Virus record (IMG/VR): IMGVR_UViG_3300029309_000210 | Span: 1-30,818 of that record | Length of the DNA: 30,818 bases | Source: a virus | Reading direction: 5' to 3' (one strand) | In this document: positions 1,883 to 17,703 of the stretch, piece by piece | Position numbering within the stretch: the stretch's first letter is position 1 | Layout: the number at the start of each line of letters is the position of its first letter | The notes under the pieces: generated by a model | What the model saw: the letters and a program-made list of their open reading frames with translations, nothing else | Databases searched by the model: none | Told to the model about the DNA's origin: nothing | Made by a program: the position numbers and the translations under genes

Positions 1883-2215
1883 ATGGAAAAAGTAAATCCA
1901 GAACGTGCGAAGATGATTAAAGATCTTCAAGATGAAAAAGCTAAGTATGAAGCTGAACTTCGTTCTGACCCAACGGACAAGGCCGCTCAGATGAATTTAA
2001 AACAAGTCAACAGTGTGCTCAAGCGGTACGGCGTTAACATCGATGAAGATAATTCTAAACTGAAAGATGGCGGCATGGCTGGCGGTAAAAGAACTCCACA
2101 CAGGTACGTGGGCGGCGGTGTTGTAGTAGATAACCTACCAAATCCCGGACTGAAAGAACTAGCTAAATCCCCAAAAGGAAGAAAAGCTGTTCGCAAAATG
2201 GGCTTTGATGTCTGA
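1883..2215 (+). CDS. small hypothetical protein with coiled-coil N-terminus
   Basis: The 110-residue protein starts at ATG 1883, three bases after the preceding stop. Residues 5-50 are charged and helical (KMIKDLQDEKAKYEAELRS) and fit a coiled coil. The second half contains GGMAGGK and a VGGGVVV stretch, then a basic tail (KSPKGRKAVRKMGF). The GGMA-K motif echoes the repeat protein at 2728-2949. Its stop overlaps the next start by 8 nt (ATGTCTGA). Function is unknown; a small virion-associated or DNA-binding role is plausible from context. Confidence 0.65.
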   Translation: MEKVNPERAKMIKDLQDEKAKYEAELRSDPTDKAAQMNLKQVNSVLKRYGVNIDEDNSKLKDGGMAGGKRTPHRYVGGGVVVDNLPNPGLKELAKSPKGRKAVRKMGFDV

Positions 2216-2738
2216 CATTGAAGATGAGATACGAAAGTGGTCTCGTGAATTTTTAGAAGTTCCTTGTGATAACCTAAACGGATTACCACCCTGCCCTTAT
2301 GCAAAGAGGGCGTGGCTAGAAAACAAAGTTAAGTTTTCTGTGAACACAGGTCTTGATGGCCTGACACAACAAGTAAAAGAATACGATACACACGATTTCG
2401 ATATTGTCATCTGGGCTGATGAAGAATATCCAGAAATGGAATATTTAGATGGCTTTTGTGACGGTATCAACGAGGCACTGTCGGTGGCTGGTATTGATCT
2501 TCATTTAATGTTGTTTCATCCAGATTACAGTCCCTCAGAAGCAGGTCTGCATTTTCTAGAAGAGGTAGAGTGTTTAGAGGACTCAGAACTCGAATACGCT
2601 ATGGTCTTTGTTCAACGTCTGTCTATTCTAGATGATGCGGCATTAAGTCTGGAGAAAAGTGGGTACTACAAACACTTTCCAAAAGATACATACGAAAGTC
2701 TAGTTCTATATAGAAGAGGATTACGAAATGAAAGGTAA
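2208..2738 (+). CDS. acidic hypothetical protein, possibly DUF1415-like
   Basis: I choose ATG 2208 over TTG 2205 because it gives the 8-nt overlap with the preceding gene. The 176-residue product is visibly acidic, unlike its neighbours. Near the N-terminus GLPPCPYAKRAW resembles, from memory, the NLCPFAK signature of the bacterial DUF1415 family, and LMLFHPDYSPSEAG in the middle resembles that family's FHPQY segment. Overall similarity is weak and I would not assign a function. It sits between basic-protein genes and overlaps the next start by 11 nt. Confidence 0.65.
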   Translation: MSDIEDEIRKWSREFLEVPCDNLNGLPPCPYAKRAWLENKVKFSVNTGLDGLTQQVKEYDTHDFDIVIWADEEYPEMEYLDGFCDGINEALSVAGIDLHLMLFHPDYSPSEAGLHFLEEVECLEDSELEYAMVFVQRLSILDDAALSLEKSGYYKHFPKDTYESLVLYRRGLRNER

Positions 2739-2949
2739 AGCAAAAACCGCCAAGAAAAAGATGATGCGCGGCGGTGGTATGCCCATGAAGAAAAAGATGA
2801 TGGGTGGCGGAATGGCTAAGACTGCCAAGAAAAAGATGATGGGTGGTGGAATGGCTAAGACTGCCAAGAAAAAAATGATGGGCGGCGGCATGGCTAAGAC
2901 GGCTAAAAAGAAAATGATGCGCGGCGGAATGGCAAAAAAGAAAAAGTAA
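2728..2949 (+). CDS. Lys-rich tandem-repeat protein, histone-tail-like
   Basis: The 73-residue protein is built almost entirely from the unit MAKTAKKKMMGGG, present in three nearly exact 13-residue copies (residues 29-66), preceded by two variant copies and ended by MAKKKK. Lys makes up over a third of the residues and there is no acidic residue. ATG 2728 follows GAGGA with good spacing and overlaps the preceding stop. Similar KKKMM-GGG proteins occur in marine phage genomes, as I recall. The composition suggests disordered nucleic acid binding, for example DNA condensation or a packaged protein. The SET methyltransferase gene starts immediately after its stop. Confidence 0.75.
   Translation: MKGKAKTAKKKMMRGGGMPMKKKMMGGGMAKTAKKKMMGGGMAKTAKKKMMGGGMAKTAKKKMMRGGMAKKKK
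2812..2928 (+). repeat. 39-bp tandem repeats inside the Lys-rich gene
   Basis: Units of 39 bp begin at 2812, 2851 and 2890, each coding for MAKTAKKKMM followed by Gly-rich residues. The third unit is slightly shortened. Third-position differences show that the copies are not a very recent duplication. Confidence 0.85.
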
Positions 2950-3351
2950 TTGCTAAATATTGCCGTACAACCATCAAAACTTCATGGCTATGGGGTCTTT
3001 GCTACATCTGTAATCAAAGAGGGGGACACAATTGAAATGTGTCCTTATGTCGTCTTAGACGATGGACAGGTTGAAGAAACTAGCATCCTCCGCGATTATT
3101 TATTTGGTACCCCATTTGAAGATGAAGAATGTTTGCTGTCACCTTTTGGGTACGCTATGGTATATAACCATTCATCCAAACCGAATGCTGAATGGATCGT
3201 GGAAGAAAAGAAAGTAGACTTTGTCCGTTTTTTTGCTTTGCGTGATATTCAGAAAGGTGAAGAAATAACACACGATTATGGTGTGGCGTATTGGGATAGC
3301 AGGGAAGATGGAGGGGATTATCCAGACTTTGTTAGCAGAGATGAGATTTAA
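2950..3351 (+). CDS. SET-domain protein-lysine methyltransferase
   Basis: The 133-residue protein is a minimal SET domain, which transfers methyl groups from S-adenosylmethionine to protein lysines. The AdoMet-binding GYGVFA lies at residues 13-18, the signature YNHSSKPNAEW at 72-82 (NHS-x-x-PN, with Ser for the usual Cys) and GEEITHDYG at 103-111, so the knotted active site and catalytic Tyr look intact. Its length matches stand-alone viral and bacterial SET proteins. The start is TTG 2950, directly after the stop of the Lys-rich repeat gene, with no clear Shine-Dalgarno sequence, so translation is probably coupled. Its substrate is unknown; the neighbouring Lys-rich protein is an obvious candidate (inference). 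Confidence 0.88.
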   Translation: MLNIAVQPSKLHGYGVFATSVIKEGDTIEMCPYVVLDDGQVEETSILRDYLFGTPFEDEECLLSPFGYAMVYNHSSKPNAEWIVEEKKVDFVRFFALRDIQKGEEITHDYGVAYWDSREDGGDYPDFVSRDEI

Positions 3352-3354
3352 GAA

Positions 3355-3732
3355 ATGATTAACACTAATAAAAATTCTAGATTTCGCACAGTTAACAAAG
3401 AGGCGGGTACAACAGGTCAGGAAGTTACACTGTACACTTGTCCATCTAACTGTCGCACTGTCGCTAATTCTTTGTGGGTTAGTAACTCAAGCACAGGTAA
3501 TGCTGATGTAGATCTTAAATTTACCCGCGCTGATACCACAAGCAATTCACAACACATGAGTTTATTAGTTAGTAAAACTTTGGCAACTGGAGAACACCTG
3601 ACTTTTCCCGATGATAAGTTTATACTAGAACCAAGCGACACCATTAAATTCACTGCAACAGGCAGTAACACGATACACGTAGATTTAATGGTAACTGTTG
3701 AAGAATTTTTCTTACCATCGGATGCATTCTAA
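3355..3732 (+). CDS. small beta-rich structural protein
   Basis: The 125-residue protein has the pattern of a phage capsid or tail decoration protein. It opens with an extended N-terminus, then QEVTLYTCPSN, NSLWVSNSSTGNADVDLKF, a Leu-rich strand pair, and DTIKFTATGSN near the C-terminus. Similar small beta-sandwich proteins (tail accessory or spike-like) are common in marine phages. It has no signal peptide or membrane segment. ATG 3355 lies 3 nt after the SET gene stop, and its stop overlaps the next start by one base. Confidence 0.65.
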   Translation: MINTNKNSRFRTVNKEAGTTGQEVTLYTCPSNCRTVANSLWVSNSSTGNADVDLKFTRADTTSNSQHMSLLVSKTLATGEHLTFPDDKFILEPSDTIKFTATGSNTIHVDLMVTVEEFFLPSDAF

Positions 3733-3986
3733 TGAAGAAAGTTAAAAAGATGATGAGTGGCGGCACGGCTAAGACAAGCCCGATGAACGCTGTTAATATG
3801 GCGAAAGGAGGTACGAAGAGTCGTGTTAATGAGTCCGGCAATTACACCAAGCCCGGTATGCGCAAAAACTTATTCAACCGCATCAAAGCCGGTGGAAAAG
3901 GTGGCTCACCCGGACAATGGAGCGCAAGAAAGGCTCAGATGCTTGCCGCACAATACAAGCAAAAGGGTGGCGGATACAAATCGTGA
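3732..3986 (+). CDS. conserved basic phage protein (KAGGKGGSPGQWSARKAQ motif)
   Basis: The 84-residue basic product starts with MKKVKKMMSGG, echoing the repeat protein at 2728. It then has a conserved block at residues 40-82: KPGMRKNLFNRIKAGG, KGGSPGQWSARKAQML, and a KGGGYKS end. I recall this block from many phage and some algal-virus genomes, always without known function. The start TAATG overlaps the preceding stop. The stop TGA overlaps the next GTG start (GTGA). It is likely DNA- or virion-associated, by composition and position. Confidence 0.75.
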   Translation: MKKVKKMMSGGTAKTSPMNAVNMAKGGTKSRVNESGNYTKPGMRKNLFNRIKAGGKGGSPGQWSARKAQMLAAQYKQKGGGYKS

Positions 3987-8985: not shown

Positions 8986-9154
8986 TCACAAGCAATGGGA
9001 TGCGTTTTGTGAGTATTTAGATATTATGATATCCGAAAATCACAAAAAGCTGGAACAACTAGATGACATAGCATCTATTCATCAAGCGCAAGGTGCAGTC
9101 AAGGCGTTGCGACAAATGAAGTATCTACGAGACGAGGCGTTATCAGATGTCTGA
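8924..9154 (+). CDS. small helical protein overlapping the portal end
   Basis: The 76-residue protein starts within the portal gene in another frame (62-nt overlap), with AAGGA at 8909-8913 as its binding site. It is all helical and charged: RQKVVSKLKSLCSNHKQWDA, YLDIMISENHKKLEQL, then QAQGAVKALRQMKYLRDEA. I recall relatives of this size and order beside portal genes in many phages, with unknown function. A small assembly factor or minor head protein is plausible. It overlaps the next gene by 8 nt (ATGTCTGA). Confidence 0.75.
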   Translation: MTNQDNHRQKVVSKLKSLCSNHKQWDAFCEYLDIMISENHKKLEQLDDIASIHQAQGAVKALRQMKYLRDEALSDV

Positions 9155-10679
9155 TGTAAAAGTACAAATGGAAGGCATAGTTACGCCGACTTATGATAAG
9201 CGGCGAAAAGGCTACAAATTCAAAGCGGACGGCATGGAAATATTTATAAAGGGTGCTGATACCGACGCCGGTAAAAAAGCCGCTGTAGATCAAATGTCTC
9301 GTTTATTGGAAGAACAAAAAGAAGAAAAGAAAGAAACAAAAACACGTGTTTTCGCAGAGGGCGGACTTAAAGACGAAGGAGGAACAGTTGACCCAATATC
9401 CGGTAATGAAGTCCCCGCAGGATCTACTAAAAAAGAAGTCAGAGATGATATTCCTGCACAACTTAGCGAAGGCGAATTTGTGTTTCCTGCTGATGTTGTT
9501 CGTTATATCGGCCTAGAAAATTTAATGGAGCTTCGTCAAAAAGCTAAAGCTGGCCTTTTTAAAATGGAAGCAATGGGCCAAATGGGCAATTCGGAAGAAG
9601 CAACTATGGATGATGAAGGTGCTTATGACGATGAAATTGATCAGCTTATCGATAGATTTGATCCTAATGATCCTGAGACGATGAAGTTTGCGCAAGGTGG
9701 TATTGTATCTGCGAGCAACGGTGTGTACCTGCCCGGACAACAATTTACCACTGGTTATATGCCCACAACAGGATACAACCCAACACAGTCTGCCCCACCG
9801 CAACAGACTTCTTATGTAACAAACCCAGCTAGACAAGCTGTTGGTCAAGCACCTATTTCTCCAGAGCTTCGTAGATATGTTGGCCCCAATGGTGAAATAT
9901 TAATGGTGCCTTTCTATGATGGCAAACCTATGCAGGGTTACACTATTCCTGCTAATTATAAATATCAGCCAGCAGAAGAGACTGTAGCACAGGCACCTGA
10001 AATTGCTCAGCCTACCGTGCAGGATGACGGCAGGGACGGCACTGATGAAGTAAAAGACGAACGAGAAGCAGAACGTCAAGCTCAAATGGCTGTGGATAAA
10101 CAGATAAATACTACTTTAGCTTCTTTAGATCCTGAATTTGCTAAGCTAACAACAAAAGATCCGTTTATGACAGGAGAGCCTACATTAAATGTAAAGAGTG
10201 CGATATTCTCAGGCGTACAAACAACTTTAGGTAGAACTGCCGCTATAGAAAGAATTGCTAGTAATTTAGGTCTCGATCTAGATCAGTACAAAAACACTGG
10301 ACTTGAAGGTGTTTTAAGTAAATATGACGACAAAAGATTTGCTGATGACATAAAAGCAATGCAAGAAGATGAGAACTTTGCAGAAAAAGCCAAAGCAAGA
10401 AAAGATTTGAAGAAAGACTACTTTAAAGGTGGCGATGAAGACAGCCCACTTGGTGGAATGACCAAAGCTGAGGCCACGGCGCAAATGCAAAACGACATGG
10501 ACGAAATAGCAGATGCGATTGACGCGGCCTCAGAAGATTCAGACTCAGAAGATTCAGGCACAGGAGATTTTGGAGGATACAGCCAAGATGATTTTTCAGA
10601 TGAAGGTGGAATATCGTTCTCCAAAGGCGGCGTAGTAAAACAAACACAACGTGCATTGAAATCATCACGTAAAAAGTGA
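9147..10679 (+). CDS. large virion-associated protein (SEGEFVFPADVVRY motif)
   Basis: The 510-residue protein has a short beta N-terminus, then a conserved block at about residues 71-142: EGGLKDEGGTVDPISGNEVP, then DDIPAQLSEGEFVFPADVVR and LENLMELRQKAK. I recall this block from many marine phage virion proteins. The middle is Pro/Gln/Tyr-rich (about 200-290). The C-terminal third is helical with an acidic Asp/Ser/Glu tract near residue 460, and the last residues are basic (LKSSRKK). GAGG at 9134-9137 serves ATG 9147. The position between portal and scaffold suggests a structural or assembly role. The exact function is not known. Confidence 0.7.
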   Translation: MSDVKVQMEGIVTPTYDKRRKGYKFKADGMEIFIKGADTDAGKKAAVDQMSRLLEEQKEEKKETKTRVFAEGGLKDEGGTVDPISGNEVPAGSTKKEVRDDIPAQLSEGEFVFPADVVRYIGLENLMELRQKAKAGLFKMEAMGQMGNSEEATMDDEGAYDDEIDQLIDRFDPNDPETMKFAQGGIVSASNGVYLPGQQFTTGYMPTTGYNPTQSAPPQQTSYVTNPARQAVGQAPISPELRRYVGPNGEILMVPFYDGKPMQGYTIPANYKYQPAEETVAQAPEIAQPTVQDDGRDGTDEVKDEREAERQAQMAVDKQINTTLASLDPEFAKLTTKDPFMTGEPTLNVKSAIFSGVQTTLGRTAAIERIASNLGLDLDQYKNTGLEGVLSKYDDKRFADDIKAMQEDENFAEKAKARKDLKKDYFKGGDEDSPLGGMTKAEATAQMQNDMDEIADAIDAASEDSDSEDSGTGDFGGYSQDDFSDEGGISFSKGGVVKQTQRALKSSRKK

Positions 10680-14178: not shown

Positions 14179-17100
14179 ATGGCTCTTGCAGTTGCTGATC
14201 GTGTAAAAGAATCCACGACAACAACGGGAACTGGTACAGTTAGTCTTGCAGGTGCGGAAACTGGGTTCCAGACGTTTGTTGCGGGCATAGGTAATTCAAA
14301 TACTACCTACTATGCAATCGTGGACGGAAATACTGGCGACTTTGAAGTTGGCATCGGTACAGTTACTGATGCATCTCCTGATACTCTTTCTCGCGATACA
14401 ATCCTACAATCGTCAAACAGTGACAGTGCGGTTAACTTTGGCGCTGGCACTAAGTCCGTGTTCTGTACACAACCCGCTGATAAGGCGGTGTTTAAGGATG
14501 CTGACGGCCATGTTGCGTTGCCTGATAGCGCGGAGATACGACTTGGTAATAGATCTGGGGGCGACTTAAAAATTCGTTATAATGGTAGTAACAATCAAAT
14601 ACAAGGTTTTACTGGCGCTCTTCAACTAACAAATTTTGCAAACGATCAAGATGTCAGAATTTTATCGGATGATAGCAGTGGAGGCGTAACAGACTATTTC
14701 AGAGCCGATGGTAGTAATGGTGAAGCTGTTTTGTATCATTACGGTACAGAAAAACTTGCCACCAAATCTACCGGGGTCGATGTCGTAGGAAATATAACAG
14801 TTTCTGGCACAGTCGATGGACGCGATCTTGCCACGGATGGTACAAAGTTAGATGGCATAGAAGCTTCTGCGGATGTAACAGATACAGCCAACGTGACATC
14901 CGCTGGCGCATTGATGACTTCTGGTGGAGCAATCACCTCTGCAACTACTCCACTTACCGCGACAACTAGTTCAAGTTCTGGCGAGTCGGCGGCCCATTTT
15001 AAACGATCCGCAAGTAACGGTTCATTAGTTACTTTTGAAAATAGTGCGAATGTTACTGTCGGTGTCATATCTACTACTTCTAATGATCTTTTGATTGGTA
15101 CAGGAGACACTGGGTTATATTTTGAGGACAGCACAAATGAAATTGAGCCATTCAATCCAACAAATAGAACCTCTACAAACGGCGTAATTAGCTTAGGAGC
15201 ATCGAATAGAAAATTCAAAGACTTTTATCTTGGCGGTAATATTACCGTCGATGGCACAGTAGATGGCAGAGACCTTGCTACGGATGGCACTAAGTTAGAT
15301 GGCATCGAGTCTAACGCAACAGCAGATCAGACAGCCGCAGAAATTAGAACACTAGTAGAGTCGGCCTCAGATTCAAATGTATTTACGGATGCAGATCATA
15401 CTAAACTAAACGGCATAGCCTCATCTGCTACAGCCAACCCAAATGCTTTAGACAATATATCTGAAGACACTACACCACAACTTGGTGGGAACTTAGATGT
15501 TAACGGGAATCAAATACAATTAGACCAAACTAGTGGCGTTGCAATTAAAACTGTTGGTGATCTTTCTAGTGCTGACTTAACTCTTTTACAAGCAAGTCAC
15601 AATAATAGTGGACAGTACGGATTCAACATCAACTACATGGGTTCGCGTAGTGGTAATGCAAATTCATTCGCACTTGAAATGCACAATCAAAACGGTACGA
15701 ATGTAGAAGCAATTACAGTTTATCAAGATGGTAAGGTTGGTATCAACAACACAGCACCAACTGCTCCACTGGATGTTACAGGTAATATTGTTGTATCCGG
15801 AACAGTAGACGGACGCGATCTTGCAACTGATGGTACAAAGCTTGACGGTATCGAAGCATCCGCAGACGTAACTGACACGGCAAATGTAACATCTGCTGGC
15901 GCATTGATGACAACAGGCGGCACGATGACGGGTGCTGTGTTGTTTAATGACAGTGTTAATGCGAATTTTGGTACAGGTACTGATTTAAGTATTACACACA
16001 ACGGTACTAATACACAAATAATAAACCGCACTGGCGTTCTTCAAATTCTCCAGCAAAGTGGTTCTGATGTTGTTATTAAAGGTGACGATAATTCTGGTGG
16101 TAGTAGTGCGGACTATTTTAGAGCAGACGGCTCTACTGGTGAGGCAATGCTTTATCACTATGGCACAGAGAAGCTAGCCACTAAATCTGGTGGCGTAGAT
16201 GTTTCTGGCAACATCACGGTATCTGGCACAGTCGATGGTCGAGACCTCGCAACTGATGGTACTAAGTTAGATGGCATCGAGGCTTCCGCAGATGTAACTG
16301 ATACAGCCAACGTGACATCTGCCGGTGCACTGATGGATTCAGAAGTTACAAACCTCGCGCAAGTAAAAGCTTTTGATTCTTCTGATTACGCTACAGCCGC
16401 ACAGGGTACAACCGCAGATGCGGCACTGCCTAAAGCTGGCGGTACGATGACCGGCAATATCAAGTTAAACGATGATGTTGATATACGTATGGGAGCCGGA
16501 AATGACTTTAAGTTATTTCATAATGGCACTAACTCAAAAATAAATAATAGTACCGGCGCTCTTCAAATTTCTAACTTTGCAAACGATCAAGACGTGACAA
16601 TTGCAACTGATGATGGCTCTGGCGCAACCGCAGTATACTTTAGAGCAGATGGTTCTACTGGTGATGCAATCCTTTCGCACTACGGCACTGAAAAAATAAA
16701 GACTCAGTCTGGTGGTATTGACGTAACAGGTAACATTACGGTATCTGGCACAGTCGATGGCCGTGACGTAGCGGCTGATGGAGCTACTGCTGATGCGGCA
16801 CTTCCTAAAGCTGGCGGCACCCTCACAGGCGATCTGGCGTTTGGTGATAACGTCAAAGCTAAGTTTGGCGCAGGTAATGACCTCAAAATTTACCATGATG
16901 GAGCTAAGTCTGTAATAGAAGATCAGGGTACAGGTGCATTACAAATAAGAGGGACTGATCTAAAGCTAAGATCTTCTGGCTCAGAAGAATATATTGAATG
17001 TATTGCAAACGGCGCAGTCACTCTTTACCATGACAACTCTGCCAAACTAGCCACCGCATCATCTGGCATTGATGTAACAGGCAACATCACTGTCTCTGGC

Positions 17101-17703
17101 ACTGTCGATGGACGAGACGTAGCCGCAGACGGTGCAACGGCTGATGCGGCACTGCCTAAAGCCGGTGGCACAATGACAGGTAACATTTCTCGTGGTGACA
17201 ATGTTAAGTCAATTTATGGTGCAGGCAATGACTTAGAAATTTATCACACGGGCACCAATAGTATTGTCAATGATGTTGGCACGGGCAACTTAGTGCTTTC
17301 TACTAACGGAACGTCAGTAAGAATTGCTCATTCAACAAACGCTGAAGCAATGGCGGTCTTTACTAAGAATGGCTCTGCTCTTTTAAATCACGACGGATCA
17401 AATAAATTAGAAACTTCTTCATCTGGCGTAGACGTAACAGGAGACATTGCTGTTACTGGAAGTGTTGTGTTTGAGGGAGCAACTGCTGATGCCCATGAAA
17501 CAACATTAGCAGTCACTGATCCTACAGCCGACAGAACGATCACACTCCCGGATGCTACAGGTACAGTTATATTAAATAGCAATTTAAACTTTCCATTTTT
17601 TAAAGCAGACGGTAGCTCTGACACAATTGCGCTAACAGCAGATAACAAATTACCTTTTGTTAAATCAGATGGAAGTGCTAGCAATATAGCATTAACGACA
17701 TAG
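14179..17703 (+). CDS. long repetitive tail fibre protein
   Basis: At 1174 residues this is one of the two largest fibre-like genes. The sequence is a chain of modules: six copies of GNITVSGTVDGRDLATDG, usually followed by KLDGIEASADVTDTAN, alternate with YFRADGSTGEAMLYHYGTEK and TGALQISNFANDQDV blocks. Such shafts are typical of trimeric phage fibres. The N-terminus (about 1-100) is not repetitive and probably attaches to the tail. Near the end one FEGATADAHETTLAVTDPTA module matches the fibre at 24945-27374. GAGG at 14167-14170 serves ATG 14179. Confidence 0.82.
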   Translation: MALAVADRVKESTTTTGTGTVSLAGAETGFQTFVAGIGNSNTTYYAIVDGNTGDFEVGIGTVTDASPDTLSRDTILQSSNSDSAVNFGAGTKSVFCTQPADKAVFKDADGHVALPDSAEIRLGNRSGGDLKIRYNGSNNQIQGFTGALQLTNFANDQDVRILSDDSSGGVTDYFRADGSNGEAVLYHYGTEKLATKSTGVDVVGNITVSGTVDGRDLATDGTKLDGIEASADVTDTANVTSAGALMTSGGAITSATTPLTATTSSSSGESAAHFKRSASNGSLVTFENSANVTVGVISTTSNDLLIGTGDTGLYFEDSTNEIEPFNPTNRTSTNGVISLGASNRKFKDFYLGGNITVDGTVDGRDLATDGTKLDGIESNATADQTAAEIRTLVESASDSNVFTDADHTKLNGIASSATANPNALDNISEDTTPQLGGNLDVNGNQIQLDQTSGVAIKTVGDLSSADLTLLQASHNNSGQYGFNINYMGSRSGNANSFALEMHNQNGTNVEAITVYQDGKVGINNTAPTAPLDVTGNIVVSGTVDGRDLATDGTKLDGIEASADVTDTANVTSAGALMTTGGTMTGAVLFNDSVNANFGTGTDLSITHNGTNTQIINRTGVLQILQQSGSDVVIKGDDNSGGSSADYFRADGSTGEAMLYHYGTEKLATKSGGVDVSGNITVSGTVDGRDLATDGTKLDGIEASADVTDTANVTSAGALMDSEVTNLAQVKAFDSSDYATAAQGTTADAALPKAGGTMTGNIKLNDDVDIRMGAGNDFKLFHNGTNSKINNSTGALQISNFANDQDVTIATDDGSGATAVYFRADGSTGDAILSHYGTEKIKTQSGGIDVTGNITVSGTVDGRDVAADGATADAALPKAGGTLTGDLAFGDNVKAKFGAGNDLKIYHDGAKSVIEDQGTGALQIRGTDLKLRSSGSEEYIECIANGAVTLYHDNSAKLATASSGIDVTGNITVSGTVDGRDVAADGATADAALPKAGGTMTGNISRGDNVKSIYGAGNDLEIYHTGTNSIVNDVGTGNLVLSTNGTSVRIAHSTNAEAMAVFTKNGSALLNHDGSNKLETSSSGVDVTGDIAVTGSVVFEGATADAHETTLAVTDPTADRTITLPDATGTVILNSNLNFPFFKADGSSDTIALTADNKLPFVKSDGSASNIALTT
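14788..17181 (+). repeat. six intragenic fibre-module repeats
   Basis: Copies start at 14788, 15235, 15781, 16207, 16729 and 17080. Those at 14788, 15781 and 16207 run 43 codons with the full DGTKLDGIEASADVTDTANV segment. Those at 16729 and 17080 share instead a 34-codon form ending DAALPKAGG-TG. The protein is more conserved than the DNA, so selection acts on sequence, with many silent changes between copies. Confidence 0.9.
17470..17568 (+). repeat. fibre module shared with the collar fibre (copy 1 of 3)
   Basis: The 33-codon unit (FEGATADAHETTLAVTDPTA followed by DRTITLPDATGTV) recurs at 25320-25418 and 25635-25733 in the other fibre gene. The DNA of the three copies differs mostly at third positions. 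Exchange of modules between the two fibres is likely. Confidence 0.8.

Follow-up and report, generated by a model that had tools for sequence, protein, structure and literature searches.

A vSET-type methyltransferase gene directly behind a lysine-repeat gene in HMO-2011-type marine phages: a possible enzyme–substrate pair

Introduction

Why would a marine phage carry a gene for a SET-domain protein immediately behind a gene for a small lysine-rich repeat protein, and might the first protein modify the second? The SET enzyme family and its action on Lys-rich proteins are already known: cpnSET of Chlamydophila pneumoniae methylates the Lys-rich, histone H1-like protein Hc1 and Go1-SET of Methanosarcina mazei methylates the DNA-binding protein MC1-alpha (PMC3980110), and the viral enzyme vSET, which virions carry, has histone H3 of the host as its target (PMC7019647). 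The first-pass annotation of the locus knew of no described phage system of such a design, and in the literature that we searched we found neither such a pair encoded by a phage nor anything relevant on phage SET proteins; SET domains go unmentioned in the description of the HMO-2011 group (PMC9038755).

If the SET protein does methylate its neighbor, a very abundant group of marine phages would possess its own histone-tail-like substrate together with its own lysine methyltransferase, and the pair would offer a compact two-protein system in which to study the tuning of a basic protein by methylation in a bacterial virus. If the target is instead a host protein, the link to SAR116 described below would make it possible to test directly for a lysine-methylation step that dominant bacteria of the ocean have in common with their phages.

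Results

An intact SET gene follows the lysine-repeat gene without a gap

The window, by which we mean the whole stretch of DNA analyzed, is a 30.8-kb IMG/VR virus record (30,818 nucleotides). The locus contains the following features:

2208–2738, plus strand: acidic protein of 176 aa with a net charge near −21, assigned to phrog_28122 (PHROG match 3.9e-67)
2715–2720, plus strand: AGAGGA, a Shine-Dalgarno-like site 7 nt 5' of the Lys-repeat ATG, recognized by eye from the sequence
2728–2949, plus strand: Lys-repeat protein with tandem MAKTAKKKMMGGG units, putative substrate (ORF, synonymous substitution pattern, presence in relatives)
2950–3351, plus strand: SET-domain protein of 133 aa read from a TTG, predicted lysine methyltransferase of the vSET type (Pfam, PDB, fold, relatives)
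2986–3003, plus strand: GYGVFA, SAM-binding motif of SET (G15 and A18 invariant, F17 nearly invariant in 25 relatives)
3166–3186, plus strand: NHSSKPN, catalytic-core motif of SET (N73 and N79 invariant, H74 nearly invariant in 25 relatives)
3268–3294, plus strand: THDYGVAYW, C-terminal active-site motif of SET (alignment to 1n3j; Y110 and G111 invariant in 25 relatives)

The Lys-repeat ORF starts with an ATG and overlaps the acidic gene by 11 nt. Its product, MKGKAKTAKKKMMRGGGMPMKKKMMGGGMAKTAKKKMMGGGMAKTAKKKMMGGGMAKTAKKKMMRGGMAKKKK, is a small, highly basic protein of 73 amino acids built of Lys/Met/Gly repeats, with 34% Lys and a net charge of approximately +27. Between the window and a second locus (L004), the gene displays 15 synonymous and 2 non-synonymous changes (dN/dS 0.02). 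This substitution pattern and the conservation of the ORF rule out a chance reading frame; the Lys-repeat ORF is a real gene.

The TTG start of the SET gene directly follows the TAA of the Lys-repeat gene, such that the gap between the two ORFs is 0. The SET product matches the Pfam SET domain (PF00856) over residues 13–111 (5.6e-17; 62.5 bits against a curated cut-off of 22.4), confirming the initial description of a 73-residue repeat protein followed without a gap by an intact SET domain with GYGVFA, NHSSKPN and HDYG. All 25 aligned relatives match the same Pfam family. The GxG, NH and GEE..Y motifs are present, and among the 25 relatives G15, N73, E105, Y110 and G111 never vary and H74 almost never does. 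The first-pass annotation had named a lack of active-site conservation as evidence against its reading; these residues are conserved. The gene evolves under purifying selection (dN/dS 0.06–0.20), which together with the conserved active-site residues rules out a degenerate SET. More generally, both the Lys-repeat and the SET genes vary mostly at synonymous sites, indicating that both code for proteins under purifying selection.

By sequence and by its model, the SET product is a vSET-type single-domain protein with intact fold and active site. vSET (PBCV-1 A612L) is its best sequence match in the PDB (1n3j, 2.7e-13) and the best fold match of its model (3kma, Foldseek 2.7e-9), and hence the nearest solved structure on both counts. 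Both proteins are small, single-domain viral SETs without pre- or post-SET modules, and their NHS and Y...YW active-site patterns align; in the alignment to 1n3j, Tyr110, Tyr114 and Trp115 of the phage protein fall on Tyr105, Tyr109 and Trp110 of vSET. vSET is a homodimer specific for Lys27 of histone H3. The two enzymes differ in that they are only about 31% identical in the structural alignment, and in that vSET targets Lys27 of a eukaryotic host's histone H3, whereas the phage infects a bacterium, which has no H3, and its candidate substrate is the product of the adjacent gene.

The gene pair is conserved in a group of HMO-2011-type phages

The acidic gene of the window is 67.6% identical to that of HMO-2011, and the Lys-repeat ORF behind it and the surrounding basic block are likewise common to both. 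By these sequence features, the window is from an HMO-2011-type marine phage. HMO-2011, a Puniceispirillum (SAR116) phage, is the nearest isolate. There, an unannotated Lys-repeat ORF of 50 aa (NC_021864.1 50628–50780, minus strand, corresponding to L013 4503–4655) lies directly behind gp66 and is followed by no SET gene. CRP-345 has the same arrangement of an acidic gene and an annotated gene of the Lys-repeat kind (gp77), again with no SET behind it. A SET query against the phage collection matched only uncultured large phages and Stenotrophomonas phages, and this SET was in no isolate of that collection.

We collected loci from IMG/VR by searching with the acidic protein (62 loci) and with the SET protein (the best 80 of 260 relatives). 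Of the loci gathered in this way, 69 distinct ones carry an HMO-type SET, and 64 of these include at least 150 nt of upstream sequence. In every one of these 64 clade loci, drawn on the SET side from the best 80 of 260 relatives, a Lys/Gly-rich repeat ORF lies immediately 5' of SET; random points in the SET loci have such an ORF on their 5' side in only 2.8% of cases. (The scripted count was 63 of 64; we added L041, in which a longer repeat protein at −4 falls just below the Lys threshold.) Conservation of the adjacency across phage genomes, a check suggested when the locus was first read, is thus confirmed within the clade. SET usually overlaps the Lys-repeat gene or sits within a few nucleotides of it, and the genes 3' of SET vary. 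In six loci (L039, L044, L076, L078, L150 and L153) a further 150–200 nt separate the two genes, with a small ORF in some of them. In L109, L111 and L131, the Lys-repeat ORF directly 5' of SET is enlarged to about 150–195 aa and has a non-repeat insert between two repeat arrays.

SET was probably gained once, and the repeat gene outlasts it

We labeled a tree of 85 acidic proteins by the presence of SET, which needs 4 changes on this tree. They are most simply read as a single acquisition on the branch that leads to the HMO-2011 clade (branch support 99/99), followed by three losses; the change count by itself does not separate gain from loss, and the more distant relatives are all without SET. 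The three loss lineages are HMO-2011, L034–L037 with L040, and L043 with L045–L047. All three keep the acidic gene and the Lys-repeat ORF, and the survival of the latter through every SET loss indicates that the repeat protein has a SET-independent function. We also considered a joint loss of Lys-repeat and SET genes in L043/L045–L047, and rejected it: the repeat ORF is present there, starting further upstream.

A single gain also changes how the adjacency is to be read. It makes the arrangement in the clade one historical event rather than 64, and its conservation may be plain descent. Outside of this single descent there is a second, distant pairing, in L007 and L008. There, a vSET-type gene on a separate branch (36% identical) shares nucleotides with the beginning of a K/R-rich ORF, inside a comparable basic block. 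This block holds, besides the SET gene and the K/R-rich ORF of 75 aa, an HNH-like gene and a gene for a Lys/Pro-rich, histone-H1-like protein of 366–377 aa (L007 2042–3175, with 24% Lys; L008 3184–4284).

A histone-tail-like motif accompanies SET

Upon comparison of the repeat proteins, we noticed that phages with and without SET differ around the lysines. The motif A[KR]3-4M, which we defined post hoc with the sequences already seen, is present in 56 of 56 distinct repeat proteins of SET phages (again from the best 80 of 260 relatives), at a mean of 2.82 copies against a shuffle expectation of 0.08, and in none of 9 relatives outside the SET clade. In the loss lineages its copy number is 0 in HMO-2011 and averages 0.8 in the second lineage and 1.2 in the third. 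In HMO-2011 and the second lineage, Ser, Gln, Ala or Pro frequently takes the place of the basic residue ahead of the lysine (ASKKM, AQKKM, AAKKM, APKRM). An independent ranking of every k-mer over a reduced alphabet puts +++M, A+++ and A+++M within its first four. A second pattern, K-x-A-[KR]-K, likewise occurs in 56/56 SET-phage repeat proteins (within the same SET search, best 80 of 260) and in 0/9 outside. Histone H3 reads KQTARKS around Lys9 and KAARKS around Lys27, and in sequence the K-x-A-[KR]-K of the repeat units resembles both sites.

The tracking of SET presence by the motif suggests that SET acts on the repeat protein. It is suggestive only, given the post hoc motif and the phylogeny: within the clade, phylogenetic regression under full Brownian covariance yields a slope of 1.9 copies with a t of 1.7, which is not significant, and the number of independent pairs is at most 4. 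At lambda 0.7, t rises to 3.6, with a poorer fit than full covariance.

SAR116 bacteria carry related SET genes, and a host target is the main rival

The closest cellular relatives of the phage SET are chromosomal genes of SAR116/Puniceispirillales, 35–50% identical to it. A vSET-type gene occurs in 54 of 136 genomes of this order (L156–L194 and L209 among the loci), standing alone in varied, non-phage surroundings. In the SET tree, the SAR116 proteins join part of the HMO-phage SETs (90/96) inside a larger clade (96/99), both values being based on few alignment columns. This joining makes exchange of the SET gene between phage and host likely, in either direction.

These chromosomal enzymes differ from the phage gene in their genomic company. 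A Lys-repeat query found no match in the 136 SAR116 genomes; the same query finds divergent repeats in control phages and misses the two most distant controls. Likewise, five types of SET in other phages (L006, L009, L016, L017 and L155) have no Lys-rich neighbor. The first-pass annotation had named SET genes without such a neighbor as evidence against its reading; they are absent among the 64 clade loci and do occur outside of the clade, on SAR116 chromosomes and in several other phages. SETs of this type therefore need no Lys-repeat partner, and a host target stays a rival.

According to this alternative, the phage SET would be the counterpart of the SAR116 host enzyme and would, during infection, methylate some conserved protein of the host, such as one belonging to the ribosome, the nucleoid or the transcription machinery, and its place next to the repeat gene would be inherited from a single insertion and have no functional meaning. 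We regard this as quite possible, if on the whole somewhat doubtful. The SAR116 genes just described argue for it, as does SAR116 being the host of the nearest isolate (HMO-2011), which is not necessarily the host of the window phage, and so does the precedent of vSET, itself an enzyme directed at a host protein. A host target leaves unexplained, however, why A-K-K-K-M tracks the presence of SET.

The acidic protein may have an enzyme-like fold

In HMO-2011-type phages, the Lys-repeat gene constantly has the acidic gene on its 5' side. From our reading of the sequence, its start is better placed at the ATG at 2208 than at 2205. Besides HMO-2011, its relatives include, at a greater distance, the roseophages CRP-345 and CRP-810 and cyanophage S-SSM7. 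In S-SSM7, the genes after the acidic gene are not Lys-rich. In CRP-810 (L015 4435–5694), the acidic gene overlaps a 2OG-Fe(II) oxygenase gene on its 5' side and an Arg-rich tandem-repeat ORF on its 3' side. No cellular relatives appeared in 385 genomes of the class, a set without a positive control, and we found no homology between the acidic protein and SET.

The family carries invariant C-P-Y-A and FHP motifs, and the cysteine of the former (Cys29) is invariant in 31 sequences. The model of the protein (pLDDT 86) gave no significant Foldseek match (best E 0.2). In a second fold comparison, the top two rows were AglA (Z 6.2 over 144 residues and Z 5.7 over 141), with the next unrelated row at 4.5. 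AglA is a thiolate-heme arginine N-hydroxylase of the YqcI/YcgG type with Cys44 as its heme ligand (PMC12866846). The alignment begins with residue 1 of the model at residue 16 of the AglA chain; should it contain no gap in this region, Cys29 would fall at Cys44 of AglA, and members of the YqcI/YcgG family contain a look-alike PC-x-x-A-K. The likeness is one of predicted fold, and profile–profile comparison gives no significant match: hhalign against four YqcI/YcgG members was not significant and a reversed control scored higher, PF08892 did not match, DUF6875 matched weakly in 15 of 31 family members (best E 0.018), and a profile search of the PDB was empty. Sequence homology to YqcI/YcgG or DUF6875 was thus rejected, and the model resembles AglA-type heme-thiolate hydroxylases inconclusively. 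The initial suggestion that the acidic protein could be a third partner holds insofar as it constantly accompanies the Lys-repeat gene; the fold predicted for it hints at an enzyme more than at a protein that partners by charge alone.

Discussion

We tentatively favor the view that the Lys-repeat protein is a substrate of the phage SET methyltransferase, a reading from sequence and analogy to which we give not quite an even chance. In this model, one message would probably serve both genes, with translation of the SET protein directly following that of the Lys-repeat protein. The SET protein would be an active vSET-type protein-lysine methyltransferase, with the Lys-repeat protein as its main phage-encoded substrate. 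The methylated positions would lie in the lysine triplets, which every repeat presents as part of A-[K/R]-K-[K/R]-M, a setting similar to the A-R-K-S sites of histone H3. Methylation could then alter the binding of the Lys-repeat protein to nucleic acid or to a partner, or protect its lysines. We infer the catalytic activity, the substrate, the site of methylation and any influence on the packing of DNA alike.

Prokaryotic systems offer partial parallels. cpnSET and Hc1 likewise combine a prokaryotic SET with a Lys-rich basic partner, in the phage a putative substrate; they differ in being encoded by bacterial chromosome genes rather than a phage gene pair, and Hc1 is likened to the Met/Gly-rich repeat by description. 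Go1-SET and MC1-alpha resemble the phage pair as a prokaryotic SET with a DNA-binding protein, and differ in that MC1-alpha is archaeal, chromosomal and folded rather than a tandem repeat.

A further alternative takes SET for an accessory gene whose point of insertion lies just 3' of the Lys-repeat gene and ahead of whatever follows, with an unrelated phage protein as its target and the motif correlation as a phylogenetic accident. The single gain and few independent losses, the post hoc motif and its t of 1.7 all fit such an accident; moreover, the genes after the Lys-repeat gene differ among SET-less phages, and the basic block of the window encodes many other basic proteins near the pair. 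Against this, SET keeps its place directly after the repeat gene in every member sampled (within the best 80 of 260 of the SET search) while the downstream genes vary, and we consider the accessory-gene explanation improbable. A bolder extension of the substrate model, in which a constant, AglA-like heme-thiolate enzyme (the acidic protein) and an optional vSET-type methyltransferase would both modify the histone-H3-tail-like repeat protein, making it a phage 'chromatin tail' with its own writers, we likewise deem unlikely.

Two further observations concern repeats elsewhere in the window. The short K/F/M-x-GG-[M/V/I/T]-type motif of the Lys-repeat units recurs in the proteins encoded at 1883–2215, 3732–3986 and 9147–10679, and it may be a linear motif common to proteins of these phages. 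Separately, a tail-like protein of 1174 aa (14179–17703) contains repeated modules, ITVSGTVDGRDLATDGTKLDGIE.
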